From Lachnospiraceae bacterium (GTDB lineage: Bacteria; Bacillota; Clostridia; Lachnospirales; Lachnospiraceae): a stretch of DNA of 64,000 bases. The notes below the pieces were generated by a model, which was given only the letters and a program-made list of their open reading frames with translations, made no database searches and was not told the DNA's origin. Location of the stretch: NCBI GenBank assembly GCA_910574885.1, contig CAJTDD010000018.1:1-64000 (forward strand). Direction: 5' to 3'. Shown here piece after piece: positions 16,030 to 57,654 of this stretch. A program made the position numbers and the translations under genes. Within the stretch, counting starts at the first letter, position 1. The number at the start of each line of letters is the position of its first letter.

Positions 16030-16874
16030 GATCTGCCACCTCCCCTGCGAGGCAGCGCCCTCTTTCCGGTTCCTGGCAGCATTTCGTCAGAAGGCTTTCC
16101 TAAATCGCGTCGCGCCTGCCTTCCTCCTTTACAAGGCTGCGCCCCCTTACTAGCGTTCGAGGGCAAGTCGTCGGAAGGCATTTTAAAAGCGCTTCGCGCT
16201 TGCCTTCCCCCTCCAACAATCCTACCATCCTCAATTCGGACTATGCGGTCGGCAAGCTGGGCTATCTCGTTGTTGTGGGTGATCATCACAATTGTCTGGT
16301 TGAACTCCATGCTGGTGCGTTTCAGAAGCCCCAGCACATCGGCGCTGGTCCTGGAATCCAGATTGCCGGTCGGCTCGTCAGCTAAAATGATAGCTGGTTT
16401 GGTAATCAGGGCACGTGCGATAGCGACACGCTGCTGCTGCCCGCCAGAGAGATTGTTCGGCATATTATTAAGCTTATCTTCCAATGCAAGCATCTCCACA
16501 ATCTCATCCATGAATTTCTCATCTGCCGTGTCACCGTCCAGTTCCACAGGCAGGACAATATTTTCATAGACATTCAGGATCGGGACAAGGTTATAGTTTT
16601 GGAAGATAAAGCCGATGTTGCGGCGGCGGAAGATGGTCAGCTCCTCATCATTCTTTTTCGCCAGCTCGTCCCCGCGGACAATGACACTTCCGGAGGTAGG
16701 CGTATCCAGCCCGCCCATCATGTGGAGCAGGGTGGATTTGCCGCTTCCGGAGGTCCCTACCACCGCCACAAACTCCCCCTGTTTCACAGACAGGCTGACG
16801 CCGTCCAGGGCGCGGGTGATATTGGGCTCGCTGCCATAATACTTTTTCAGGTCGATTGTTTGTAATACATTCAT
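16026..16874 (-). CDS. ABC transporter ATP-binding protein (MacB/BceA type) with a repeat-encoded tail
   Basis: A 282-residue ATPase. Walker A is GTSGSGKST (about 41-49), the Q-loop sits in [10 protein letters not shown], the signature is [15 protein letters not shown], Walker B is [11 protein letters not shown] and the switch His is in MITHNN. A typical member ends near residue 225, just after [10 protein letters not shown]. Here about 58 extra basic residues follow, encoded by two in-frame 84-bp tandem repeats (28 residues each). The start is the ATG at 16874 with GGAG 9 nt upstream. It has its own promoter-like repeat upstream and should power the neighbouring FtsX-type permeases. Confidence 0.9.
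16044..16211 (-). repeat. Two tandem 84-bp repeat units within the ATPase gene
   Basis: Read on the minus strand, unit 1 (16211-16128) and unit 2 (16127-16044) are both exactly 84 bp. Each starts GGRGGAAGGCARGCGCGAMG and ends with GGGCGCWGCCT followed by a short stretch. Unit 1 contains a hairpin, AAGCGC-GAA-GCGCTT. Because 84 is 28 codons, the units add two 28-residue repeats to the ATPase and end just before the ribosome site of the next permease. A dispersed palindromic repeat that landed in a gene end would explain this (inference). Confidence 0.7.
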
Positions 16875-41579: not shown

Positions 41580-41592
41580 CTTGCCCTTAAAA

Positions 41593-42160
41593 CTTTGTCG
41601 CTATCTCAATCCGGAACTTTGTCTCCATCTTCCATCACCTATACCGCATATCTCGATTTTGTCGTTATCTTTTGCTGATATACCCCTCATTTTTATCATT
41701 TAGTCCGCTTTTTTGGGTGCACTTTTTATCTCTATATGCTCCGATTCATCATTTAGTCCGTTTTTGAGGGTATGTTTTTCTGCTACTCTTTATACCAAAC
41801 TTACTTTTAGTCCGCTTTTTACGGCACATTTTTTCAGTCTGTACACATTCCCGGTTTCTATTTAGTCCGCTAATCCGGGTGCATTTTTCATGAATCTGTA
41901 TCCCTGCCCCTTTATTTAGTCCACTTTTTCAAGCTCATTTTTTCTATCCATTCCGTTCTCGTTCCCCCATTTAGTCCGCTTTTTCAGGTGTTCTTTTTCA
42001 CGGAAGGCTGCCGCCATCTGCACCGGATATCACAATAACTGCCGCCATTTAAATACAAATTTTAATTTTGTCGCTATCTTTATCATTCTGTACCAGATAA
42101 ACTGATTTTGTCGCTATCTTTTTGTTTCAGATAGCAGATCCATTAATTTTGTCGCTATCT
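41593..42160. repeat. Origin repeat family 2 (TTTTGTCGCTATCTT)
   Basis: Six copies of a TTTTGTCGCTATCTT-like motif begin at 41593, 41617 (degenerate), 41656, 42064, 42105 and 42146. They lie in two groups of three that flank six copies of the first iteron family. All face the same way. They are probably a second binding site for the initiator or a partner protein. Confidence 0.65.
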
Positions 42161-42700
42161 TTCCCACGATTCACCCCACAAAAAATGAATTTAGTCCGCT
42201 TTTTTAGGTGTTTTTTTCTATTTTTTTTCATTTAGTCCGCTTTTTAAGGGTACTTTTTTCTTTCAAATTTATTCAGTCTGTTATTTTGGGTGTATTTTTT
42301 CTGATTTTTTTATTCAGTCCGTTTTAAAGGGTACACTTTTTTCATTGTATGATTTCCCCCAAAAAATATATCTTTCCCCCAATACAGATCTTTTGAGGAA
42401 AATTTGAGAACTCAGCCCTGATTCCTGTTAAAATCTTCTATTTAGTCCGTTTTTTACGGCTTCTTTTTTATAATCTATCATGATTTCCCAATTTAGTCCA
42501 TAAAAAATGGCTCATTTTTATAAAAAATTTTTTTCACTTTTTTTCTAAAAAGTCCCGAATCCTTAAAAACCCCGTAAAATCAAGGCTTTTCCGCATTTTC
42601 CCATTTTCTTGTATCATAAATTTGCAGAAAAAATATATTTAAAATCCCCTTTAAACACATAGTTTTTTCAATTTAGTCCGCTTTTTCGGGTGCGACTTTT
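41699..42700. repeat. Origin iteron array (TTTAGTCCGCTTTTT family)
   Basis: Thirteen same-facing copies of TTTAGTCCGCTTTTT, each followed a few bases later by a GGTG- or GGGT-like step and a T-run. Starts: 41699, 41752, 41806, 41861, 41915, 41970, 42190, 42231, 42271, 42312, 42441, 42492 and 42672. The first six are 53-55 bp apart, about five helix turns. The stretch 41566-43042 (about 1.5 kb) is AT-rich, has no gene, and is best read as the replication origin. Confidence 0.75.
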
Positions 42701-42751
42701 TGATTTTACAAATCCCAAAATATGTAGTATATTTAGAATGTTGATAAAAAA

Positions 42752-42800
42752 ATGTGAATAACTTTGTGAAATTTGGCGGTTTCAAAAAAGTTATTCACAT
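42752..42800. other. Inverted repeat carrying two DnaA boxes
   Basis: ATGTGAATAACTTT (42752-42765) pairs perfectly with AAAGTTATTCACAT (42787-42800). Each arm contains TTATTCACA, one form of the DnaA box TTATNCACA, in opposite orientation. The 21-nt loop contains TTTGGCGGTTT, and GGCGGTTTAGC follows at about 42833. It sits at the right edge of the iteron array next to very AT-rich DNA, a sensible opening site. Confidence 0.65.
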
Positions 42801-43042
42801 CGAATATAAAATATACTTACAGTAGCTTTTCTTGGCGGTTTAGCTACTACTACAATATCAATCAGAGATCAATCATATATACTGCTATTGACCAATGGCT
42901 GATACTGCATTAATATTATAGACTATTCTTTCTCTATTTTCAAGTATTATTGCCGAATCAGTCAATATTGGGTGTTTTTGTGGTACAGTCACATATTTTT
43001 ATTGTTTGTCCTGAATCAATATTCTGACATGAGGTGATTAGC

Positions 43043-44287
43043 TTGGAATTATCAAAATATGCACGGATTGGTAAAGCTCCTTTTATCAAAGCAATCGGAA
43101 TTCAGAAAAACCATAAAGAAGTCATATATACAGAAAGCCAGGAACTGGATTATGCAGCGTCTGGCTGTTTTGCGTGCGATAATTACAAGAACATTGATTT
43201 TTATGAGTTTATGCCGGAGGAGATTCAGAAAGAAGCCAAGAACCGTTGTAAGAACTGCCCCTGTGCCGTTTACAAAACAGTTGTACATGAAACGTGTAAA
43301 AGCGTAAACGAGAAAAATATCTTTGGAAATGCCAAAAGGTTAAAATCCATAGCCTTAAAGCTGCTGCTCATCTATCATTTTGCCAGTCCTGATGAGCATG
43401 GCTTAGTTCGCGGCCTTTCCCCCAGAGAGCTGGCCGGCATGCTTGATTGCACCGTCCGTTCCGTTAAAAATGCTAATTCTGTATTGCAGGAATATGGATA
43501 TATTATGTGTTCATCTGATGGACTTTCTAAAAAAAGGATCCAGGTCATCCTGACCGAATATGAAACATATTCTCTTCCTGCTGATAAAGGCGGCCGGGGA
43601 TATGCCACATTTAATTATGAATGTCTGGAGAAGCTGATTCAGATTACAGACCTGAACCAGCTCCGGATTTTTCTGCGCGCTGCTTTAGATATTGATACGA
43701 ACCGTAATCCGGAAAAAGAACTGACTGTCACGCAGGATTATGATTTCCTGCGCCGTTTTCTTCCTAACTACTGTAAGCCAGGAATCATACGGCATGCTTT
43801 ATCTTCTGTTTCGGAGCTTTTTTCGGTCGCTTTTGACGGTGACGAAGAACATATCCATTTAAAAATGAATCCCCTCTGCCATGGCCGCAGGAATTATGAT
43901 AAGAATGTTGCACAGAATACTTCCCTTATAAAAGATTACATTTCCAGCCTCGATAAAGCAATGGACTGTATAAACCAGAGTATCCTTACAAAAATCCGGC
44001 CCGACGAGGCTGACGCATCCTTTTTGGCCCAGGAGGGAATTCTGACCAAAACTCTGACAAAGCTGGATAAATCCTTATTTGTTCCTTTCCACTTATCCGC
44101 AAAGGAATATAAGGACTTAGGGGTTCTCTGCACTACATATACATTTGATGCAGTCAAAAACTGTATCGGTTATGTTTATGAAAATTATAACTCACAGTTT
44201 AAAGTCACAAGCATAGGTGCCCTTATACGGACCATTCTCCACGATAAGAATAACCGGCAGGAATCTTCATTATTCCAGACGGCATAA
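43043..44287 (+). CDS. Winged-helix, cysteine-cluster protein of the replicon (unknown function)
   Basis: A protein of about 414 residues. Near residues 37-75 are CFACDN and RCKNCPCAVYKTV, a CxxC plus CxxCxC cluster likely to bind zinc. A helix-turn-helix follows at about 105-165 (LLLIYHFASPDEHG, LSPRELAGMLDCTVRSVKNANSVLQEYGYI). The C-terminal 200 residues are helical with no recognised family. GAGGTG lies 6 nt before TTG at 43043, the preferred start; GTG at 43034 is the alternative. Its place beside the iterons suggests a copy-control or second replication factor. I do not recognise the family. Confidence 0.55.
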   Translation: MELSKYARIGKAPFIKAIGIQKNHKEVIYTESQELDYAASGCFACDNYKNIDFYEFMPEEIQKEAKNRCKNCPCAVYKTVVHETCKSVNEKNIFGNAKRLKSIALKLLLIYHFASPDEHGLVRGLSPRELAGMLDCTVRSVKNANSVLQEYGYIMCSSDGLSKKRIQVILTEYETYSLPADKGGRGYATFNYECLEKLIQITDLNQLRIFLRAALDIDTNRNPEKELTVTQDYDFLRRFLPNYCKPGIIRHALSSVSELFSVAFDGDEEHIHLKMNPLCHGRRNYDKNVAQNTSLIKDYISSLDKAMDCINQSILTKIRPDEADASFLAQEGILTKTLTKLDKSLFVPFHLSAKEYKDLGVLCTTYTFDAVKNCIGYVYENYNSQFKVTSIGALIRTILHDKNNRQESSLFQTA

Positions 44288-45066: not shown

Positions 45067-46440
45067 TTAAAGATGACCTCCGAGTAAGCTTAGTATATAA
45101 TCATCCATTCCGTCATCGGTCTCTTCCTTCACATCCTGTGCCGGAACCAGGCCGGCCTGCTCATTTTCAAATGTTTCTGTGTCAACTGTAAATGGATTTT
45201 CATCCATGTCTGAGCCTGTATGAAAACTGTCATCGGAATCATTGACGATGTTATCGTTTAATTCAATTTTGTCGGAATCTTCTTTATGCACAGAACCGCA
45301 TTCATGACTGAGTATTTTTTCCTCCAAAACACTGATTCGTTGAAGCAACACTGCTGTGTCACTTTGAGGGAGTTTTATGTTGCAACATTTTATCAGGTAT
45401 ACAAGGACGTCCATATAAGGATTCAGACTGTTCCTTATTTTTTCACGAAGAATACTGAATTGCTCCACATACCAGAATAATATTTCAATTTGGCAGGAAC
45501 TAATTATTTCATACAGTGCATCCTGATATTCTTTTGTATTATATAAAGCTGCAGTTCCAGATGATGCAGAAAGAACGATCCCATCCGTACAGCATTGGAG
45601 TATATGATCGACCAGCTGCACCAAATTTTTCCCTTCTTCGCAGATTCTCTGAAGCAAGAGGATTGCCTGCCTGCCGTCACCATTTACAAGCGAACGCATG
45701 ATCTGCAAAGCAACCTCGCTATCCATAAGGCAAAGGGATTTCATCACATGCTCTACTGTTACTTTTTCACAGGAGATCATTAGCTTTTCTGTGATACTGA
45801 GGGCATCCCTCATAGACCCGTCAGCCTGTTTTGCGATCAGCTTTATGGCATCATCCTCATACTGTTTTCCCATTTCAGTTAAAACGAAGGACAGTCTGCC
45901 GCAGATGACATCAATTGATATAGTCCGGAACTGGTAAATAGAACATCTGGAACGTATAGTTGCAGGAATTTTATGCATTTCTGTCGTACAGAGTATGAAC
46001 AGACAATGTTCCGGCGGTTCCTCGATTGTTTTCAGGAGTGCGTCAAATGCAGCTGCTGAAAGATTATGTACTTCATCTATGATATATATCTTTTTCGGCA
46101 ATATGGTAGGCATATACTGGGCTGATACAATAAGTTCCTTTATGTCTGTAATAGAGTTATGCGATGCCGCATCCATTTCAATACAGTCTAATGTTTTTCC
46201 TTCCAGAATCGACCTGCAGTTTTTGCATTGATTGCAGGGACCGTTTTCACTTGGGGCCTCACAGCATACTGTTCTTGCAAGGATACGTGCAATGGTCGTC
46301 TTTCCTGTTCCCCTGTGGCCTGCAAAAAGATAGGCAGAATCAAATTTTTTTGTTTTACACTGTTCTTTCAGCGTTAAGATATTATTTTCCTGCCCTACTA
46401 CTTCTTTGAATGTTTGCGGCCTATATGTTGAGTATAACAT
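45067..46440 (-). CDS. DnaX-like DNA polymerase III gamma/tau subunit
   Basis: A 457-residue AAA+ clamp-loader protein: YRPQTFKEVVGQ opening, Walker A GHRGTGKT (41-48), a zinc cluster of four cysteines (Cys60, Cys69, Cys72, Cys75), Walker B IYIIDEVHNL (about 118-127), sensor 1 LCTTE and the SRC arginine finger. It would load the sliding clamp onto primed DNA. After the collar domain (to about 370) there is only an acidic tail, so this is a gamma-like form without the tau regions for polymerase and helicase. It is the last gene of the operon. GGAGG precedes the ATG at 46440. A chromosomal dnaX would normally be accompanied by recR, which is absent here. Confidence 0.85.
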   Translation of the reverse strand: MLYSTYRPQTFKEVVGQENNILTLKEQCKTKKFDSAYLFAGHRGTGKTTIARILARTVCCEAPSENGPCNQCKNCRSILEGKTLDCIEMDAASHNSITDIKELIVSAQYMPTILPKKIYIIDEVHNLSAAAFDALLKTIEEPPEHCLFILCTTEMHKIPATIRSRCSIYQFRTISIDVICGRLSFVLTEMGKQYEDDAIKLIAKQADGSMRDALSITEKLMISCEKVTVEHVMKSLCLMDSEVALQIMRSLVNGDGRQAILLLQRICEEGKNLVQLVDHILQCCTDGIVLSASSGTAALYNTKEYQDALYEIISSCQIEILFWYVEQFSILREKIRNSLNPYMDVLVYLIKCCNIKLPQSDTAVLLQRISVLEEKILSHECGSVHKEDSDKIELNDNIVNDSDDSFHTGSDMDENPFTVDTETFENEQAGLVPAQDVKEETDDGMDDYILSLLGGHL

Positions 46441-46453
46441 AAAATTCCTCCTT

Positions 46454-46666
46454 TTATTTTATTTGGATTATATATCGTATCAGATTGAAATAATCGTTTT
46501 TCGTATAGGAACGTTGAGCCATGGATAAATGCTCCAGTCCATATTCCATGATTTCTAATGCTTGTGCTCTTGTATATAACGTATCCGGGAAGGGATATCC
46601 CTTACTGGGAACTTTCCGGGGAGATTCTGCTAAAAACTGATAAAAAGGATATAAGAATGTATTCAT
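46454..46666 (-). CDS. Small hypothetical protein of the clamp-loader operon
   Basis: A 70-residue protein, MNTFLYPFYQFLAESPRKVP...YTRAQALEIMEYGLEHLSMAQRSY, with no recognised family. GGAAGG lies 5 nt before the ATG at 46666. It overlaps the end of the delta-prime-like gene by 65 nt in another frame and ends 13 bp before dnaX, so it is probably translated with them. A structural link to the clamp loader is possible only by position. Confidence 0.5.
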   Translation of the reverse strand: MNTFLYPFYQFLAESPRKVPSKGYPFPDTLYTRAQALEIMEYGLEHLSMAQRSYTKNDYFNLIRYIIQIK

Positions 46667-47228
46667 TTATCCCTTCCATAGATGCAGTAATGGAATAAGG
46701 AGCATTTTCCGTTAAAAAACCTACGAAGCCAATACAATCCTTATCAATTTTTAATTCCTTCAGATATTTTTCCATCGCTTCTTCCCTAAGCGGGTGAAAA
46801 AGGACAGAATAACAGCGGCTTTTGATGGTATCGAGCAGGCTGTCTTTTTCCGAGACAATAATCAGCTTATTACTTGAAGCTCTGTCTTCTAATAGTTTTA
46901 AAAGACGGTTTTGTGCTGTCCTCGATACAGTATGGGCACAAAAAAGAATAAATACTTTTACATCTCCAATACTGTTACGGCGGCTCGCTTCGAGAAGCTG
47001 TTCAATATCATCTACTTTCAGGGCCGATTGGGTTGTCTGGTAATAGTCGGGATTTTTTTCTAAGTCTGACTCCTGGCACTTTAGAAGCTTTGCAGCTATA
47101 TATCTTGCCGCAAGCTCTTGCCCAAGCCCTGGAATACCCTGTAGTATAATACCCGGCGGTTCGGTCAGTGAGAGATAATTTTCAATCTCGTCCATTGTAT
47201 CTTTATTTATGTATAGATGTTGGTGCAT
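46602..47228 (-). CDS. Clamp-loader delta-prime-like subunit
   Basis: A 208-residue protein with a degenerate Walker A (GIPGLGQE in place of GxxGxGKT), a helix with CAHTVSRTAQNRLLKLLED, IIVSEKDSLLDTIKSRCYSV (sensor and SRC motif), the usual signs of delta-prime (HolB), which does not hydrolyse ATP but supplies the SRC arginine. The ATG at 47228 has GGAGG 8 nt upstream; the TTG at 47234 is less likely. It overlaps both neighbours. It is short (typical HolB about 320 residues), so the collar domain is reduced. Confidence 0.75.
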   Translation of the reverse strand: MHQHLYINKDTMDEIENYLSLTEPPGIILQGIPGLGQELAARYIAAKLLKCQESDLEKNPDYYQTTQSALKVDDIEQLLEASRRNSIGDVKVFILFCAHTVSRTAQNRLLKLLEDRASSNKLIIVSEKDSLLDTIKSRCYSVLFHPLREEAMEKYLKELKIDKDCIGFVGFLTENAPYSITASMEGINEYILISFLSVFSRISPESSQ

Positions 47229-48216
47229 TTCCAATTCCTCCTTGTAGGTTCGTTTTAGACAAATATAAATAGTTATTGAGTTTTGAAACGTATACTGCCC
47301 CGCTTTTCTGCTGGTTTTCTGTCATATAAAATTCCATATTACTGATCTGCAAATAAGATGTGTATGCAAGGTTCAATATTAATGCTTCCCGGTTCATAGC
47401 CTTCCATCTTTCCTTTTTATAAGCAGTTTGGATTACATTATAAAGAAGATTTTTATCTTCTGTCGAAATATGGTGTTTCATTTCTTTTATATATGATTCA
47501 ATGATCTGTATGCTTAGGATATCTTTAGGGAGCAGCGCATACTCACTGACTTTTTCCGCTTCGGGAAAAGGTGTATAAAGGTTTGTAGTTCCGATGCCGA
47601 ACAGAAGGGAGCCAGTGATTAGCAAGTCTTCCTGATATGGAATCTTGAGGTCCGGATGGTATGCGTACATCTTTTGTGAACGTATAATCTGGATTGCAAT
47701 GCTTGTGACAGATACGGTCTGGACGAGCAGGGCGCCGTTATATGCGCCCGAACAGGTCAGGCCGGCAGGAGTTTCAGCCAGCCTGTTTTTTTGACCTTTC
47801 AATACCAGATTTAATAGTTCCCGGAAGGGGGCATGTGTGACTAAACTGCTCTGTTTATCTAGCAGGTTTAAATAATGTTCTTTTTCCAGCTCATTTAAAC
47901 CGTCAATAAAGCTGCTGAGTGAATACTCGGTTACAGGGCTTATTTTTTGAATTGTGAACTCTAACTGGTTCTTGTAGTTTTTTAGCACCTCGCCCCATAT
48001 TTTGATGACTTTGCCTTTAAATTGAAGGTATCTCTCGTCTATATTATTTTCCCATATCCGTCCGTAGATAACGCCGGTTTTATCCTGGAGTTTCAGGAAC
48101 AGATATGGGATTCCATTTCCTTCTGTATAGCTTAAGGCAATTTCCTTTAGATAAAACTCTTCTTCCAGTTCTTCTGCCAGATGTTCAGACAGATGCGATA
48201 TGTAGATCTTTTTCAT
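47203..48216 (-). CDS. YhaM-like protein with OB fold and degenerate HD domain
   Basis: A 337-residue protein. Residues 25-95 (YLFLKLQDKTGVIYGRIW, FKGKVIKIWGEVLKNYKNQLEFTIQKI) match the OB fold of YhaM-type 3'-5' exonucleases. The following part aligns by eye with the YhaM HD domain, but the key residues have gone: CSGAYNGALLVQT (155-167) stands where the family has HHAYRGGLLEHT, and LLFGIG (204-209) stands for LLHDIG. Nuclease activity is therefore unlikely; nucleic-acid binding may remain. It overlaps the genes on both sides. The start is the ATG at 48216 (or 48222). Confidence 0.6.
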   Translation of the reverse strand: MKKIYISHLSEHLAEELEEEFYLKEIALSYTEGNGIPYLFLKLQDKTGVIYGRIWENNIDERYLQFKGKVIKIWGEVLKNYKNQLEFTIQKISPVTEYSLSSFIDGLNELEKEHYLNLLDKQSSLVTHAPFRELLNLVLKGQKNRLAETPAGLTCSGAYNGALLVQTVSVTSIAIQIIRSQKMYAYHPDLKIPYQEDLLITGSLLFGIGTTNLYTPFPEAEKVSEYALLPKDILSIQIIESYIKEMKHHISTEDKNLLYNVIQTAYKKERWKAMNREALILNLAYTSYLQISNMEFYMTENQQKSGAVYVSKLNNYLYLSKTNLQGGIGNAPTSIHK

Positions 48217-48835
48217 ATACATCTTCTCCTATTTTATAAGATATATTTTTCATTCTGTCTAATAAGTTTGTATAATATTCCCCAATCATACTGTTTAGGA
48301 TTTTATCATCCGGGTAAGCGAAATAATGGGTTTCTTCAGGCTTTAGAAGGGAACTGACAATGTGAAGATTGCGGAATAAATGTATTTCGCCACACCGTGC
48401 AAAAATCTCACACTTTCTTAGAAAATAGTTAAGATTATATTTTCCCTTTTTTGGCAGAATTTCCTTTCCATCCTTGCGTTCTTTTTCTACAGAAGATATC
48501 AGAAGCTGCTGATATTGCAGTGCAACCTGGTCAAATTCACATTTCATGGACAGGTCGCCGAGCATATCATCGAGCATATGAAAATATTCATGGATAAAAG
48601 ATGTTGGATGCCTGAAATCAACTACCATAGTATCGATGGAGGGATAATACAGACCAGTTGCATGGTGTTTACCAAGTTTCCGAAAACGCAGAGCAACGTT
48701 TTTGTTCATATAGCCATTGAAAATATTTTGATTTAATTTCTTGAATTCTTCCGTTATGGAATCAACCAGATTCAGGTCTACATCTTCGTCAAATTCGATA
48801 AAGCCGAAATATGTGTTTAATTCTGAGGATTTCAT
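48185..48835 (-). CDS. HExxH metallopeptidase-like protein
   Basis: A 216-residue protein. FIHEYFHMLDD contains HEYFH at 82-86 (zinc ligands His82 and His86, catalytic Glu83), and CEIFARCGE near 142-150 supplies a possible third ligand (Glu143). The order HExxH...(Y)xxRxxEiFAR resembles the small peptidase domain of large polyvalent phage and plasmid proteins (recollection). The ATG at 48835 directly follows the stop of the upstream gene. A protease within a replication operon is unusual; the target is unknown. Confidence 0.6.
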   Translation of the reverse strand: MKSSELNTYFGFIEFDEDVDLNLVDSITEEFKKLNQNIFNGYMNKNVALRFRKLGKHHATGLYYPSIDTMVVDFRHPTSFIHEYFHMLDDMLGDLSMKCEFDQVALQYQQLLISSVEKERKDGKEILPKKGKYNLNYFLRKCEIFARCGEIHLFRNLHIVSSLLKPEETHYFAYPDDKILNSMIGEYYTNLLDRMKNISYKIGEDVYEKDLHIASV

Positions 48836-49924
48836 TTAATGTACAACGTGCTTTGGAATATTTTTCTTGGTTTGGTAGGCACGTGCGACTATCCTTTTTA
48901 GCTCATTTCGATGTTTTTCTTCCTCTGCAAGATCATGTATGTTTGCGATATAATGCCTTAATGTCATGAATATGTATTCTCTGTAATAGTAAGGCAGGTC
49001 TATCATGGCAGATTTTCCGGAAACATTTAGTAAAATATCATAAGACAGATAGGAATCCCCATATACAAAAGAAAGTAGGTTAAACACTTCGGAATGGCTT
49101 TTGAAATAATCCTTATAGAGTGTTGAAGGTTTGCTTTCGGAACCGGCTGCTTTGATATAACAGTTATGTATTGTATCCTCCTGATAACCACAATCGATCA
49201 GATAGTTGGAAAACCATTTTGGAAGATCAGTCATATCCCATTTATAATTTTCCAATATTGATACTAAGTCACGAATCAGGTGCTTCATGGTATCTTCGAT
49301 ATCCGGATCGTCAAAAGAATCCATTTTCAGCTGGTTAAGCCAGTTTATTCCGAACAAAGGATAAAAAAAGTTTTCGGCATGGTACATATGGATGAAATGA
49401 CGAGGATTTGATTTGTAATGATAGCTGCCATTAGAGAAACGTTTCCCAGGACTGCATGGAAGATAAAATGTTGTGTCTTTTATTTTAATTGTTAAAATAA
49501 TGTTCGACCGGCTGACATCCCTGGCTAATCCTTTTTCAAATAAGTTGGATGCAGATTCGATTTTGCAGCCATAGTTTTTATTAACAAAGTGCAATAAAAA
49601 AGGAATGCCTTTGCTACTTAGACATTCCTCCGTTTTTATTTCTTTTAGATTTTTTTTGATTTCTCTTTCTATAGCACTTTGTATTTGCTGCTTGGCTTTA
49701 TATTCTTCCACATCAAGCCGGGGATATTTTAAATCGCACAACCTAACCGTTAGGTTATGAGTTTTAAAAACGACCCGTTCTTTTTTCTCCCTTGCTAATG
49801 ATAATATTCTTTCCCCTTCTGACAAGTAATTCATGCAATCCTTATCTTCTTGACTTTCATTGGATTTATCTGGTTTATCCTCGATAAGTCCAAGCATAAT
49901 AAATAGATTTGTTGTTTCGTTCAT
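48836..49924 (-). CDS. Unknown protein, first gene of the clamp-loader operon
   Basis: A 362-residue soluble protein that I do not recognise. The N-terminus has a short conserved-looking stretch (NLFIMLGLIEDK), followed by a charged helix (about 75-105) and a central beta-rich part with FYLPCSPGKRFSNGSYHYKS; the rest is helical. The ATG at 49924 has AGGAGG upstream. One of the parS-like palindromes (49742-49754) lies inside the gene, which is unusual for a coding region. It leads a six-gene, fully coupled operon ending with dnaX. Confidence 0.6.
   Translation of the reverse strand: MNETTNLFIMLGLIEDKPDKSNESQEDKDCMNYLSEGERILSLAREKKERVVFKTHNLTVRLCDLKYPRLDVEEYKAKQQIQSAIEREIKKNLKEIKTEECLSSKGIPFLLHFVNKNYGCKIESASNLFEKGLARDVSRSNIILTIKIKDTTFYLPCSPGKRFSNGSYHYKSNPRHFIHMYHAENFFYPLFGINWLNQLKMDSFDDPDIEDTMKHLIRDLVSILENYKWDMTDLPKWFSNYLIDCGYQEDTIHNCYIKAAGSESKPSTLYKDYFKSHSEVFNLLSFVYGDSYLSYDILLNVSGKSAMIDLPYYYREYIFMTLRHYIANIHDLAEEEKHRNELKRIVARAYQTKKNIPKHVVH
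49742..49754. promoter_or_regulatory. parS-like palindrome 1
   Basis: CCTAACCGTTAGG, symmetrical about a central C/G. First of seven copies of CCTAACSGTTAGG around parA/parB; this one lies inside the coding region of the gene at 48836-49924. Confidence 0.6.
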
Positions 49925-50187
49925 GTTTTCCTCCTTTTAAAATAAAAAAGACATCAATGGATGTCTGCCTACATAGTATATCAAAACTTATTTCACCTAT
50001 CGCTAGGGATTGAAAGAAACGGAAAACCAAAGGTCATCCGGGATCAAAAAACAAGTTTTTTAAAGTATATCAATCATGTGTCAGATTGTCAATTCATATG
50101 TATGTCTGAGAAAATATTTCGTTACGGTTCAGCTTTTTGATCCATTTATAGTTCGCTTCGCAAAGGGGTGGATTTTTTTGCTGTCAC

Positions 50188-50700: not shown

Positions 50701-51549
50701 GTGGCTATTGTAATAGGGGATTATAACAGAAAAGGGGGCGTGGGAAAGACCAGTTCTATCATCAACCTGGCAGCCGAATTTGCATTAGCGGGAAAAAGGG
50801 TTCTGCTGATTGACGGGGATTCCCAAATCAATCTGACTCAGTTCTTCTATGAAGACAATGAAGATATTCTGGAGAACGGAAGAGTAAAAGAGGGGATTGA
50901 TACACTTTATAATTTGTTGGAGGAAGATCTGAATATTCATAATCATATCAGGACCTGTGAATTTTCCGCTCGCAGGAAATGGAGAAACAAATTCAGGAAA
51001 ATCAATTTAAAACTGGATATTATTCTCGGAAGCGGAGATATGGATTATTACAGTGGAACCGACATGAATCTTCTGAAACGCAAACTTGATATGTTGGATG
51101 GATATTATGATTATATATTTATAGATTTTCCGCCCGCACATAATATGGTGACAATGACCTACCTGGTAGCCTGCGATTATGTAATTGTTCCTCTGCATCT
51201 CGCCAAGAACACCAGTACGCATGGATATGAAGACGTCATTGACAGGTGCCGCGAAGCGCGGGAGGAATATGGGAACAAGAGACTGCAGGTACTGGGGTTG
51301 TTTTATATAAGTACACAATTATATAAAGGGGATCAGAAAGCCTTATATGAATACAGCATGGAGGATGAAACAAGGACTTCCATGCGGCTGTTTCGGACAA
51401 CGATCCGCCATGATTATTCGAGTATGCAGATTAGCGAGTGGGAGAAAAGGCCGCTTTGCATCAGCTGTGGAAGCAGTGAGATTGCAAAGGATTATAAAAT
51501 GCTGATGAAGGAGATGGAGGAGAGAATTCAGGAAGAAAGGGGAATATAA
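50701..51549 (+). CDS. parA: ParA-family partition ATPase
   Basis: A 282-residue protein with the deviant Walker A NRKGGVGKTSS (9-19), an IDGDSQINLT segment (A' motif) and Walker B YDYIFIDFPPAH (about 134-145), as in type Ib ParA ATPases without an N-terminal DNA-binding domain. It forms ATP-dependent gradients on the nucleoid that move ParB-parS complexes. The start is GTG at 50701 with GGAGG 7 nt upstream. The stop is followed at once by parB. Confidence 0.92.
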   Translation: MAIVIGDYNRKGGVGKTSSIINLAAEFALAGKRVLLIDGDSQINLTQFFYEDNEDILENGRVKEGIDTLYNLLEEDLNIHNHIRTCEFSARRKWRNKFRKINLKLDIILGSGDMDYYSGTDMNLLKRKLDMLDGYYDYIFIDFPPAHNMVTMTYLVACDYVIVPLHLAKNTSTHGYEDVIDRCREAREEYGNKRLQVLGLFYISTQLYKGDQKALYEYSMEDETRTSMRLFRTTIRHDYSSMQISEWEKRPLCISCGSSEIAKDYKMLMKEMEERIQEERGI

Positions 51550-52596
51550 ATGGCAAAGAGGAGTTTGGCAAGCCAGGCGCTTACAAAACGTAATACGATG
51601 CAGAAAGCAGCAAGTAAATCAGAAGATTTCCAGAAGGAGATAACGGATGAAACGAATGTAAATGAACTTCCAGACGAAGTAAAAGAGAAGATAAGGTATC
51701 TGGAAGATAACATGCTGGAAGATGATCCTTATAATCTTGAAATATACGGTGAATCTGAAGTGGAAATGCTGTCCCGATCCATGAAGGATTATGGTTTCCA
51801 GGGGATCATTCTGGCATATCCGCATGAAGGGAAATACAGGATAGAATCCGGGCACCGCAGGAGAGAAGCGGGGCGGCTGGCCGGTATTGATAAATATCCG
51901 GTTCTGGTTACAGAAGCACCAAAAGAGGAATGGGAGCGAAGGATGCGGCTGTTTCTTGGCAATCTGCATGGCAGAAAGGAAAAGCCAATGATTCTGGCAA
52001 GACTTGCTCAGGGACTTTTTGAGGCCCATGAAATGGAGATTAAGCATAAGAAAAGGGAAGGGTTGCTCAAAGAAGGGGAGATAACGGCAATTAATGAACT
52101 GGTCGCTATTGACATGGAACTGGATATCAAATCCGTTGAAAAGTACCGGGCGCTTTTGAAGCTGATACCGGAGTTGCAGACAATGGCAGATTCGGAGGTT
52201 TATTCCTGGTCCGGACTTTCCAGTGCAAGTACATTGAATGAAGAGAAGCAAAGAAGCCTTGCAGAGATGATACGGAAACAGACGGAAAAAGAAGGAGCTG
52301 AAAGTGTAAAAAAGGTTCGGATTTTAGAAATGATTAGTAATCTGAAATTAGAACAGCTTTCATCCGATGTGAAATCTGCTGTTGGAAGAAATGAAAAGCC
52401 AGAGCAAAAAACGGGTGTGCGCGTCAGGCGTAAAAACGGGACTAAAATAATCATGAAGTGTGCGAAGAGCCTCCATGAGGTATTAGATGAGGAGTCCTTA
52501 ATCAAGGACAACGAAGTCTCGGTGGTCATCGAAACGCTGGAAGGGCTGAAAAAGAGCATTGATGAGAAGATTGATGCATTAAAAATGGAAACCTAA
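51550..52596 (+). CDS. parB: ParB-family partition protein
   Basis: A 348-residue protein. The ParB/Srx domain contains SRSMKDYGFQGIILAYP and the CTP/DNA-loading box ESGHRRREAGRLAG (about 99-112). A helix-turn-helix region follows (INELVAIDMELDIKSVEKYRALLKL). It should load at palindromic parS sites and spread as a clamp. It begins immediately after the parA stop. Its own stop codon lies within a parS-like palindrome (52592-52604). Confidence 0.9.
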   Translation: MAKRSLASQALTKRNTMQKAASKSEDFQKEITDETNVNELPDEVKEKIRYLEDNMLEDDPYNLEIYGESEVEMLSRSMKDYGFQGIILAYPHEGKYRIESGHRRREAGRLAGIDKYPVLVTEAPKEEWERRMRLFLGNLHGRKEKPMILARLAQGLFEAHEMEIKHKKREGLLKEGEITAINELVAIDMELDIKSVEKYRALLKLIPELQTMADSEVYSWSGLSSASTLNEEKQRSLAEMIRKQTEKEGAESVKKVRILEMISNLKLEQLSSDVKSAVGRNEKPEQKTGVRVRRKNGTKIIMKCAKSLHEVLDEESLIKDNEVSVVIETLEGLKKSIDEKIDALKMET

Positions 52597-55311: not shown

Positions 55312-57654
55312 TCAGAATAAACCGTCTAAAGATTCGCTGCCATCGGGTACAGGCGGCCGGGATTCCTGCGTCTGGGAAGGAGACGGCATTTTTGGCGCTG
55401 CACTGCGTCTGGTTTCGGAAGAATCAAAATCATAACAACAGTATTCAGAAACAAGTTCTCTTCCAGAAAATGCAGCACAGCTGTTTCCGGCTAAGGATGA
55501 GGCGGGGGTGGCAGAAGATGCAGGGCCAGTATATGGCCTGAAAATTTCAGCAGAGAAAGACTCTCTTTTTTGGGGAGACCAGTCTTCGGGCTTTAAAAAT
55601 TCGACTCTTGCATGCAATGGCGGGAGCGGACGGCCATTCTTGGTGGTAAAAAGAGTGATTTCCTGAAAATCCTTCATACGGATATCTGTCTCCTCCACCA
55701 GATTTTTCTGCGTACATGTCTCTCTTGAAGAATAAGAGAGAGAAGGCGAATCATCTGACAGGGCTGTCTCAGAAACGGTTGACTGTTCCTCCACCTCATC
55801 ATGGATTCCTGCCATTGCAGAAAATACTTCCATATCTGACAGTGAAGAACGTCCGAATACAAAAATATGGGCGCAGCCTAAGATTACGCCTTTCAGATAC
55901 TTTGTGATTTCGTTTTTCTCAAACTGGTCTAAAGTCTGGATTGCACAGAACATGGCTACCCGGAATTTCCTGAATAAGGAGAAATTTTTCTCTAGAGAAC
56001 TGTGGATCAGCACAGGAAGCTCGTCAACATAGAAGAAGTGCGGAATCCTTGTTTTTTCTGTTCCTGGACGGGACAATACCGCATTGTTGAATGAGAGCAG
56101 AAAAAACAGACCGAATGCAATCGCGTTGCTGTCACCGGAGGCAAGGTCGTAATTGCAGACTGTAATCTCCCCGTTTTCAAGAATCTGGTCAAAGTCAATG
56201 GAGGCTTGCGCACAGTAGACATCTTTGCTTTCTGGCATCAGTAAAAACTCATTGATGATATTCCTGGTACCACGGCTCTGATCCTCCATCTTTGGACGGC
56301 CTTTCCCAAGGAGGTCCTCCCGGATATATTGGGAGATAAAGGAATAACGCTTCTGCTCCCTGTCAAGCTCGTCCAGTTTGCTCACATAAGGCGGCAGGAG
56401 GTCGAAGTTGTTAATGAGCAGCTGCAGGTCAGCAGGGGTGGCCTGGCGTTTGTAAAGGACAGGAACCGTGTTCATGACAAGAATGGCCAGGTTTGCAAGC
56501 ATCTGCCTGTTGAGTCCGGTGAAATAGGAATCTGCCTTCCCCTTCAGATCGGTAATTACCTGCATGACATCTGAAAAGATGACCGCTTTTTTAACAATAG
56601 CCTGATGGAGTGCATTGCCGCTTAGAGAAGGTGATATAAAAAATGGGTTCATGCCAGTCCAGTTTGGCTTGAGTGTTCCTTCAAAGGTGTGTGTTGCGTC
56701 AATTCTGTGATAGGGAATGCCGCGTGCCTCACACAGCCTGCATACGTCATCTGTCAGAGAATCCTCCGGTGCCAGAACCGTAATTCCGCAGACCGGATAC
56801 TGCATGCGGATAGATTCGGGAGAGGCGTAAGTGGCGGTAGTTTCGGTGCAGCTGTCCGGCATTGCTTCTTTGGCAGGACGAAAATTGGACAGGGAAAAAT
56901 ATGAGAAAGAGCCGGTATAGGTATATAGGCCGTCCTGCACAAGCTTGTGCATAGCCTTTATCTGTTCCTGCTCTGCCTGACAACGCATATCCAGATCGTC
57001 ACGGATTGCGGGCAGAATCGTGGAAGACGTTTTCCCGGTTCCACTGGTTCCGTCTACCAATGTATGCAGAAAACGGTCTGTTTCTGATATGGTAATACGT
57101 TTCCCGCTGCGGATGTCCCTGGCGATAGACAAAGGATACTGGATCCTTCTTTTTTGCTTTCCGGTTTGCAGATAATAGGTCAGCTTAAAGGAAAGAATAA
57201 CACTGCGGCTTTTTGCGTCCCTGGCTGGGCGGAGGAAAGACTTCATCAGTATATAAAAAAGCGGCAGGAGAGGGAGCTCTGTAATCAGGCGGGCAAGAAA
57301 AAGAACCATGCCCTTTGTAAAGATTTCGTCTGTCTCAATCGCAAGAACAGAGGGAAGGAATAACTTTGATAAAAGCTGAAATACAACTGTAATGATTATG
57401 AGTGTTTCGTAATACAGGGTTGCAATATAGGCGGCAAGCTTAAAACGGTGATAGTTAAACGCTTCTGAGACGGTAGATAAGAGCCAGAGAAGTATCGGAA
57501 GCGTCATAGCGCAAAAACGATAAACAAAGCCGCAAGGGAGCAGTGAATAGTCGATTCGGTACAGTGCAAAGATAAACCGAAGGCTGTACGCAAGCAGATG
57601 GCAGAGGAACAGACCATAGGCAACTGCAGGAAAAGAACGGTTTGTTTTATTCAT
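55312..57654 (-). CDS. TraG/VirD4-type coupling ATPase
   Basis: A 780-residue protein. Four membrane helices lie in the first 145 residues, then the P-loop DGTSGTGKTSS (201-211), a long ATPase core and Walker B FFYVDELPVLI (about 540). The RHS-like C-terminus is Ser/Pro-rich and probably disordered. Type IV coupling proteins of this kind feed plasmid DNA to a secretion channel during conjugation or mobilisation. The N-terminal four helices instead of two are unusual. The ATG at 57654 has GGAGA upstream and overlaps the previous gene. No relaxase is present in the window. Confidence 0.8.
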   Translation of the reverse strand: MNKTNRSFPAVAYGLFLCHLLAYSLRFIFALYRIDYSLLPCGFVYRFCAMTLPILLWLLSTVSEAFNYHRFKLAAYIATLYYETLIIITVVFQLLSKLFLPSVLAIETDEIFTKGMVLFLARLITELPLLPLFYILMKSFLRPARDAKSRSVILSFKLTYYLQTGKQKRRIQYPLSIARDIRSGKRITISETDRFLHTLVDGTSGTGKTSSTILPAIRDDLDMRCQAEQEQIKAMHKLVQDGLYTYTGSFSYFSLSNFRPAKEAMPDSCTETTATYASPESIRMQYPVCGITVLAPEDSLTDDVCRLCEARGIPYHRIDATHTFEGTLKPNWTGMNPFFISPSLSGNALHQAIVKKAVIFSDVMQVITDLKGKADSYFTGLNRQMLANLAILVMNTVPVLYKRQATPADLQLLINNFDLLPPYVSKLDELDREQKRYSFISQYIREDLLGKGRPKMEDQSRGTRNIINEFLLMPESKDVYCAQASIDFDQILENGEITVCNYDLASGDSNAIAFGLFFLLSFNNAVLSRPGTEKTRIPHFFYVDELPVLIHSSLEKNFSLFRKFRVAMFCAIQTLDQFEKNEITKYLKGVILGCAHIFVFGRSSLSDMEVFSAMAGIHDEVEEQSTVSETALSDDSPSLSYSSRETCTQKNLVEETDIRMKDFQEITLFTTKNGRPLPPLHARVEFLKPEDWSPQKRESFSAEIFRPYTGPASSATPASSLAGNSCAAFSGRELVSEYCCYDFDSSETRRSAAPKMPSPSQTQESRPPVPDGSESLDGLF

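Follow-up and report, generated by a model that had tools for sequence, protein, structure and literature searches.

A DnaX/delta' operon beside the origin of a Lachnospiraceae plasmid: a probable accessory clamp loader in decay

A plasmid is generally assumed to rely on the entire DNA polymerase III (Pol III) holoenzyme of its host. What, then, is the role of clamp-loader genes that a plasmid carries itself? We analyzed a stretch of 64,000 nucleotides from Lachnospiraceae bacterium (hereafter the window), which begins the 104-kb contig C18 of a 5.3-Mb assembly. On the minus strand of the window, an operon transcribed from parAB toward a Rep gene (49924 to 45067) encodes a DnaX and a delta'-type protein. 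A record titled Sporofaciens musculi plasmid (L010, 287 kb) contains DNA near-identical to the window, which indicates that the operon's replicon is separate from the chromosome; such DNA is also present in Dorea sp. 5-2, on a contig of 262 kb (L009). Both the minus-strand coordinates and the family matches agreed with the claim of an earlier note that DnaX-like and delta'-like genes sit between the origin and the partition genes of this replicon. Our reading, which is drawn from sequence comparison and to which we give a probability of about 0.6, is that the operon represents an accessory, host-dependent partial clamp loader, ancestrally DnaX plus delta', which would borrow delta and clamp from the host and is eroding in this plasmid.

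Four ancestral genes and their products

The last gene of the operon (P0001; 45067..46440, minus strand) encodes a gamma-type DnaX of 457 aa with intact ATPase, zinc and SRC motifs, which exceeded the cut-offs of two curated DnaX models (TIGR02397, 363.2 bits against a cut-off of 250; NF004046, 400.7 bits against 400). The Walker A and Walker B motifs, the four zinc cysteines and SRC, whose roles we take to be the usual ones for these motifs, occupied invariant columns in a six-row alignment, and the closest solved structure chains were DNA polymerase III gamma/tau subunits. The host dnaX of the same genome was 38% identical to P0001 and had a longer C-terminal tail (526 vs 457 aa), and a 19-row tree placed the plasmid DnaX outside the clade of Lachnospiraceae hosts. 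The plasmid loader genes are thus not housekeeping copies.

Upstream of DnaX lies the N-terminal piece of a HolB-like delta' gene (P0002; 46602..47234, minus strand), with an AAA+ domain and an SRC motif and without the Walker A lysine; by sequence reading, its likelier start is the ATG at 47228, which is preceded by GGAGG. P0002 scored above the cut-off of PF13177, the delta' AAA+ domain (56.9 vs 27 bits), and below that of the holB model TIGR00678 (69.9 vs 180.6 bits), and for the latter reason we filed it as delta'-like rather than as HolB. A 70-aa ORF in another frame (P0006; 46454..46666, minus strand) is the C-terminal remnant of the same gene after a 134-nt deletion: it had no family match above cut-off in Pfam/NCBIfam profile scans, and it aligned with the delta' C-terminus at an hhalign probability of 99.6 against the delta' set. 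In L010 and in locus L046, delta' is a single protein of 303 and 306 aa, respectively; the deletion is common to the window and L009 and absent from L010. Because it splits the gene, the window has no full-length delta' with the C-terminal collar domain, and the short delta-prime described before is a deletion product rather than a naturally small protein.

The next gene upstream (P0003; 47203..48222, minus strand) encodes a YhaM/Cbf1-like protein of 339 aa, which resembles the YhaM/Cbf1 3'-5' exonucleases in its OB-fold plus HD layout and differs from them in its lost HD-nuclease residues. A three-row profile of such proteins matched the solved YhaM/Cbf1 chains 9h3f and 9o7t, whereas P0003 itself reached 40.8 bits against the YhaM model NF010007, under the cut-off of 460. 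None of the HD residues checked (the HH, H, HD, HH and D positions) was kept in the window protein or in its counterpart in genome G353. The motifs were kept by all 12 YhaM rows of other genomes (part of the 28 loci L015-L042); a YhaM fragment in genome G349 was intermediate, and a YhaM on contig C17 of genome G039 retained HH, H, HD and D without the HHG motif. Since the HD motifs were lost in both the window and G353, the YhaM-like protein is likely a binding protein rather than a nuclease. Cbf1/YhaM of Staphylococcus aureus was formerly reported as a plasmid replication factor (PMC7196914), and loss of yhaM caused no mutator phenotype in Bacillus subtilis (PMC5627055). The presence of a dead YhaM relative on a plasmid ties in with that S. 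aureus report.

Gene 1, the first of the operon (48185..49924, minus strand), was ancestrally an ORF of 579 aa, which an in-frame stop (48836-48838) divides in the window, giving P0005 (362 aa) and P0004 (216 aa). In L010 and in L011, another close copy, the equivalent ORF is undivided and has 579 aa, and L046 has a single ORF of 585 aa. The C-terminal part of gene 1 contains HEYFH and EIFARCGE motifs, presumably zincin-like, which recur in L010 and in a fragment in G349, and as HEYLH with EIFARCGE in L046. P0004 matched LPD1 weakly and under the cut-off (E = 0.013). For gene 1, NCBIfam gave no match and the PDB none that was convincing, neither half had a family above cut-off in the Pfam/NCBIfam scans, and hhalign comparisons of gene 1 with host clamps (0.7) and with delta' (0.2) were both negative. 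P0005 was without a match in the plasmid collection, and a single-sequence fold model of the L010 protein was unusable (mean pLDDT 34). Searches with gene 1 gave matches in 3 of 397 Lachnospiraceae genomes and, at class level, in 2 of 391 genomes; matches in G092 (E = 4e-4) and G591 (E = 8e-4) were rejected by eye as an unrelated ATPase and a permease, respectively. Anti-phage defence models (PADLOC) run on eight proteins gave only partial matches, in P0001 and P0004 (E = 0.004-0.01).

Comparison of the copies thus indicates an original operon of four genes (gene 1, YhaM-like, delta' and DnaX), two of which are broken in the window. The stop in gene 1 and the deletion in delta' together account for the former description as six fully coupled genes with a short delta-prime.

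Host subunits and decay among close copies

The host's own replication genes were found on other contigs of the same genome: dnaX on C14, holB on C3, delta (holA) on C4 and the clamp (dnaN) on C33. C2 and C24 gave matches to Pol III alpha that have the sizes of DnaE and PolC. The contig is therefore not the chromosome of a host with no other dnaX or holB. In the S. musculi genome (G777), the corresponding matches (dnaX, holB, delta, clamp, Pol III alpha) all lay on a 5.4-Mb contig (C2), and an extra DnaX and delta' were located on the plasmid contig C1. This division, with extra loader subunits on the plasmid and delta, clamp and polymerase elsewhere, supports the idea of a partial loader that depends on its host.

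It had been proposed that one of the proteins without assignment could serve as delta. Comparison with a delta profile did not favor this, with hhalign probabilities of 0.2-0.4 (gene 1) and 0.8 (YhaM-like protein), so that neither protein resembles delta, while P0006 turned out to be the delta' remnant; as positive controls, the delta of locus L102 gave 84.7 and that of L055 gave 17.4 (66.5 with the L102 delta in the profile). Profile searches upheld the DnaX assignment (TIGR02397 and NF004046), upheld HolB in part (PF13177 passed, TIGR00678 missed), and yielded no HolA in gene 1 or the YhaM-like protein. In the mechanism that we propose, plasmid DnaX and delta' would assemble with host delta and load the host clamp onto plasmid DNA, which may aid lagging-strand synthesis or establishment following conjugative entry. 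The YhaM-like protein would be a non-catalytic OB-fold binder of nucleic acid or of the replisome, and gene 1 a zincin-type accessory. As delta' is broken here, any remaining loader activity in this plasmid must also borrow host delta'.

DnaX is intact in the window, L009, L010 and L011, and in L011 a 930-nt deletion takes out the delta' region. In the sister plasmid L012, the operon is reduced to fragments and its delta' remnant carries three stops, yet full-length matches remain for Rep (86%), ParA (98%) and ParB (94%). The operon is hence unnecessary for replication from this origin, and the suggestion that it replaces the host loader there is not supported; it is probably an optional helper undergoing loss.

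The changes among the close copies pointed in the same direction. Rep, ParA and ParB had no nonsynonymous change in 416, 282 and 348 codons (1046 in total) in each of the three comparisons among the window, L009 and L010. For the operon, where every omega value rests on few changes, omega was 0.11-0.25 for the gene 1 halves in these comparisons (0-0.38 with L011), 0.11 for the YhaM-like gene (window vs L010), 0.27 and 0.41 for the delta' piece (one comparison was without synonymous change) and 0.27-0.81 for DnaX in six comparisons including L011, the highest value reflecting three nonsynonymous and one synonymous change. Purifying selection seems to have acted on the operon, though less strictly than on the replicon core. 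The YhaM-like gene has its low omega despite the loss of its HD residues, which we count in favor of an accessory loader.

Could the operon instead have lost all function in this plasmid? Two of the four genes are broken in the window and L012 has pieces only, but the DnaX and YhaM-like ORFs are intact in the window, the latter with the low omega given above, and the promoter-like site and leader ahead of gene 1 are identical or nearly so in the window, L009 and L010. We consider such a complete relic possible but rather unlikely.

Loader genes on other elements and competing explanations

A relative of the Rep-like protein occurred in 8 of the 397 genomes of the family. DnaX was present beside it in two of these (the genome studied here and G353), both of which have the operon; five had no DnaX beside Rep within the stretch fetched, and in the remaining one (G179) the contig ends 3.6 kb beyond Rep. 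No loader gene was detected by tblastn in the stretch fetched beside Rep in G110, G336, G008 and G019, and a delta' match at L078 (E = 0.02) was dropped since by eye it falls in an integrase-like ORF. Beside Rep on contig C91 of G349 (L075, 3-1456) lie part of gene 1, the decayed remains of a YhaM gene and an ORF resembling the DnaE C-terminus, which scored 76.4 bits with NF005298 (full-length cut-off 1260), and the genome has just two PF13177 matches, one holB-sized and one dnaX-sized, on other contigs. This cluster looks as if a polymerase gene was once part of it.

Two further Lachnospiraceae elements, both bearing a type IV secretion system (T4SS) and located on contigs C154 and C17 of G039, also have delta' directly upstream of DnaX. 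C154 (L102, 6288-10536, minus strand) differs from the window in adding delta and a clamp-like gene, so that delta, clamp-like, delta' and DnaX genes lie in one direction, beside VirB4-like genes; by sequence, this row appears to provide a mobile element with both a clamp and all loader subunits. Its delta exceeded the TIGR01128 cut-off (94.1 vs 80). The clamp-like protein matched phrog_947 in PHROGs over nearly its full length (E = 7.1e-16), while Pfam, NCBIfam and an hhalign comparison with four DnaN proteins of hosts gave it no support; as a query it matched 1 of the 397 family genomes, G039 itself. On C17 the order YhaM, delta', DnaX recurs, and a ParA gene lies in the vicinity; its DnaX is 33.5% identical to that of the window, and it differs from the window in a YhaM with most HD residues and in a relative of the C154 clamp about 5 kb off. 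The latter (L117, 9887-11029, minus strand) is a 380-aa protein without PHROGs or NCBIfam support of its own, identified by its 27% identity to the C154 protein. C17 also carries VirB4- and VirD4-like genes, both under cut-off, and the VirB4-like genes of C154 likewise scored below NCBIfam cut-offs. The DnaX proteins of the window, G353, C154 and C17 formed a four-row set in the 19-row tree (support 97/93), in which C17 is a long branch of unsure placement.

Outside the family, 171 plasmid records matched P0001, eight of which were opened (the other 163 were not opened for DnaX context). Four of the eight were chromosome-like blocks in which dnaX adjoins ybaB (two records of Clostridioides difficile and one each of B. 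subtilis and Monoglobus) and were not counted as plasmid loaders; counts of dnaX in plasmid sets (PLSDB) are inflated by such blocks labelled plasmid. The other contexts were pCY186, with a PolC-type gene, for which no open-access paper was found, Clostridioides pESS17301a (NZ_CP067354), Lysinibacillus pSSII-1 and a 628-kb Rossellomorea plasmid. The DnaX of pESS17301a is 37% identical to that of the window, and the loader genes likewise lie beside a plasmid replication initiator (RepA), but its set is different, consisting of a delta-like gene (PF21694), DnaX and a single-stranded DNA-binding protein (SSB), in a stretch without annotated delta' or YhaM. In pSSII-1 and the Rossellomorea plasmid, dnaX and delta' genes are adjacent as in the window, but dnaX precedes delta', and in the 19-row tree the two DnaX proteins fall with Bacillus. 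Plasmid DnaX/delta' pairs thus already exist elsewhere. Plasmid DnaX itself is not unique. A delta' match also led to a cyanobacterial plasmid, in which holA lies next to the matching gene.

Compared with the standard bacterial clamp-loader proteins DnaX and HolB, the window's products share the AAA+ fold with zinc cluster and SRC motif, and differ in being plasmid-borne, in a delta' that is under the holB cut-off and broken, and in that no plasmid delta was found. The phage collection contained 443 records matching P0001, three of which, without annotation, entered the 19-row tree. The DnaX of Streptococcus phage Dp-1 is likewise encoded by a mobile element (34% identity; window DnaX against phrog_5846, E = 2.9e-71), but phage clamp loaders of this kind lack the Rep/parAB plasmid context. 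Viral contigs gave no relative of P0001, P0002, P0003, P0005 or alignment A1. As judged by titles and abstract openings, we found no description of a plasmid-borne DnaX/delta' operon in the open-access literature; of two related papers, one concerns diverged clamp-loader subunits from ocean data and not plasmid operons (PMC12153180), and the other describes the iteron plasmid RK2 as requiring the clamp loader along with a Rep-clamp contact (PMC4980987).

These relatives suggest, tentatively and with the balance against it, that a clade of Lachnospiraceae conjugative plasmids might have a clamp-loading lineage of its own. Such a lineage would range from the full delta-clamp-delta'-gamma set (C154) to delta'-gamma with a dead YhaM accessory (window and G353), would provide partial independence of the host replisome at establishment, and would be undergoing dismantling in the window.

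Another explanation is that the loader serves transfer, acting in complementary-strand synthesis in the recipient after conjugation and not in vegetative replication, with gene 1 resembling a polyvalent zincin protein. A coupling-protein-like gene is present in the window (55312-57654; PF10412, 25.5 bits against a cut-off of 20.5), the C154 and C17 delta'/DnaX contigs carry VirB4-like genes, albeit below NCBIfam cut-offs, and in the Rossellomorea plasmid a distance of 5 kb separates dnaX-holB from genes for TrbC/VirB2 and PrgI. In addition, gene 1 combines an HEXXH motif with the weak LPD1 match, and zincin and LPD domains have been described in conjugative elements (PMC5512222). On the other hand, parAB separates the loader from the coupling-protein gene in the window, where the operon adjoins Rep, and both pESS17301a and the Rossellomorea plasmid were typed as non-mobilizable. 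We therefore regard a role confined to transfer as unlikely. A third alternative, which we consider very unlikely, is that the plasmid DnaX acts as a competitor, poisoning or modulating the loader of the host in the plasmid's favor, with no need for plasmid delta'. For this reading, DnaX is intact in all four close copies, in three of which delta' is broken or missing, and its tail is shorter than that of host DnaX; against it, delta' is retained next to DnaX in L010, G353 and both G039 elements, and the few DnaX changes (omega up to 0.81) are compatible with relaxed selection.

Several points weigh against the accessory, host-dependent loader that we prefer. PF00712 finds just one clamp in G039 and misses the clamps of the G039 elements, so that family searches may overlook diverged clamps; a profile built from the two element clamps had matches only in G039 and none in G000, G776, G777 or G353, and reaches only relatives of these two proteins. 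The gene 1 stop is present only in the window among five copies, P0004 could still be produced by reinitiation past this stop, and the 70-aa P0006 could in principle complement the delta' fragment P0002. L011 keeps DnaX intact though its delta' is gone, which could reflect a function independent of plasmid delta' or merely a recent loss. Finally, L011 and L012, titled Lachnospiraceae isolate assemblies, have MGBC contig names, and we take them to be metagenome bins.

With intact, reduced and decayed natural versions at the same Rep/parAB site, the purpose of a plasmid loader becomes testable, and the same lineage of elements allows one to ask whether a loader can be shared by replicon and host.

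Leader and replicon surroundings

A strong promoter-like site, TTGACA-17-TATACT (50064..50092, minus strand; 11 of 12 matches, with TG before the second hexamer), lies 5' of gene 1 and is largely retained in relatives. It is followed by a leader of about 120 nt (49940..50060, minus strand) with a terminator-like hairpin (49949-49966) ahead of the gene 1 start, a candidate attenuator. The leader was more stably folded than its shuffles (z = -2.85), as was that of L046 (z = -3.29), and Rfam gave nothing at the gathering score within it. Attenuation of gene 1 by this leader may be suggested, but the case is weakened by two observations: the region had no clear excess of promoter-like (29 vs 22.5 in shuffles) or terminator-like sites (4 vs 3.7), and the best L046 fold has the same terminator-like hairpin with a different upstream part. 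The leader also contains a CCTA-NNNN-TAGG motif whose loop is GCGA, GTGA or GAAA in relatives (all GNRA); it forms a hairpin in the window fold and not in the best L046 fold.

The operon is flanked on one side by the iterons, two DnaA-box-like sites and Rep, and on the other by parAB and parS-like sites. The iteron arrays (41591..42702, plus strand) comprise 12 copies around ATTTAGTCCGCTTTTT and another 6 around AATTTTGTCGCTATCT, followed by the two inverted DnaA-box-like sites (42753..42799, no strand assigned). The position of the gene for the 417-aa Rep-like protein (43034..44287, plus strand) suggests a role in replication; the protein matched phrog_13905 (E = 5.6e-8), a phrog without known function. 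ParA (50701..51549) and ParB (51550..52596), both on the plus strand, had family profile matches. Seven parS-like CCTAACGGTTAGG palindromes lie between 49742 and 54269, giving 14 matches when both strands are counted against 0.83 expected, a number reached in none of 100 shuffles. One of them (49742-49754) sits within the gene 1 reading frame, so that the operon could be affected by ParB spreading.

Among other proteins of the window, P0009 had no match in the phage collection, and in the plasmid collection P0013 matched three weak HD-protein records and P0008 matched 16 partial records, and nothing more. Ten ORFs scanned at 8982-33860 included four sensor-kinase-like genes plus FtsX-type and ABC transporter genes, which suggested a cargo block of regulated transport. 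An Rfam GA-cis RNA (RF02987) was found at 16131-16215 on the minus strand (58 bits vs a gathering score of 34.7).

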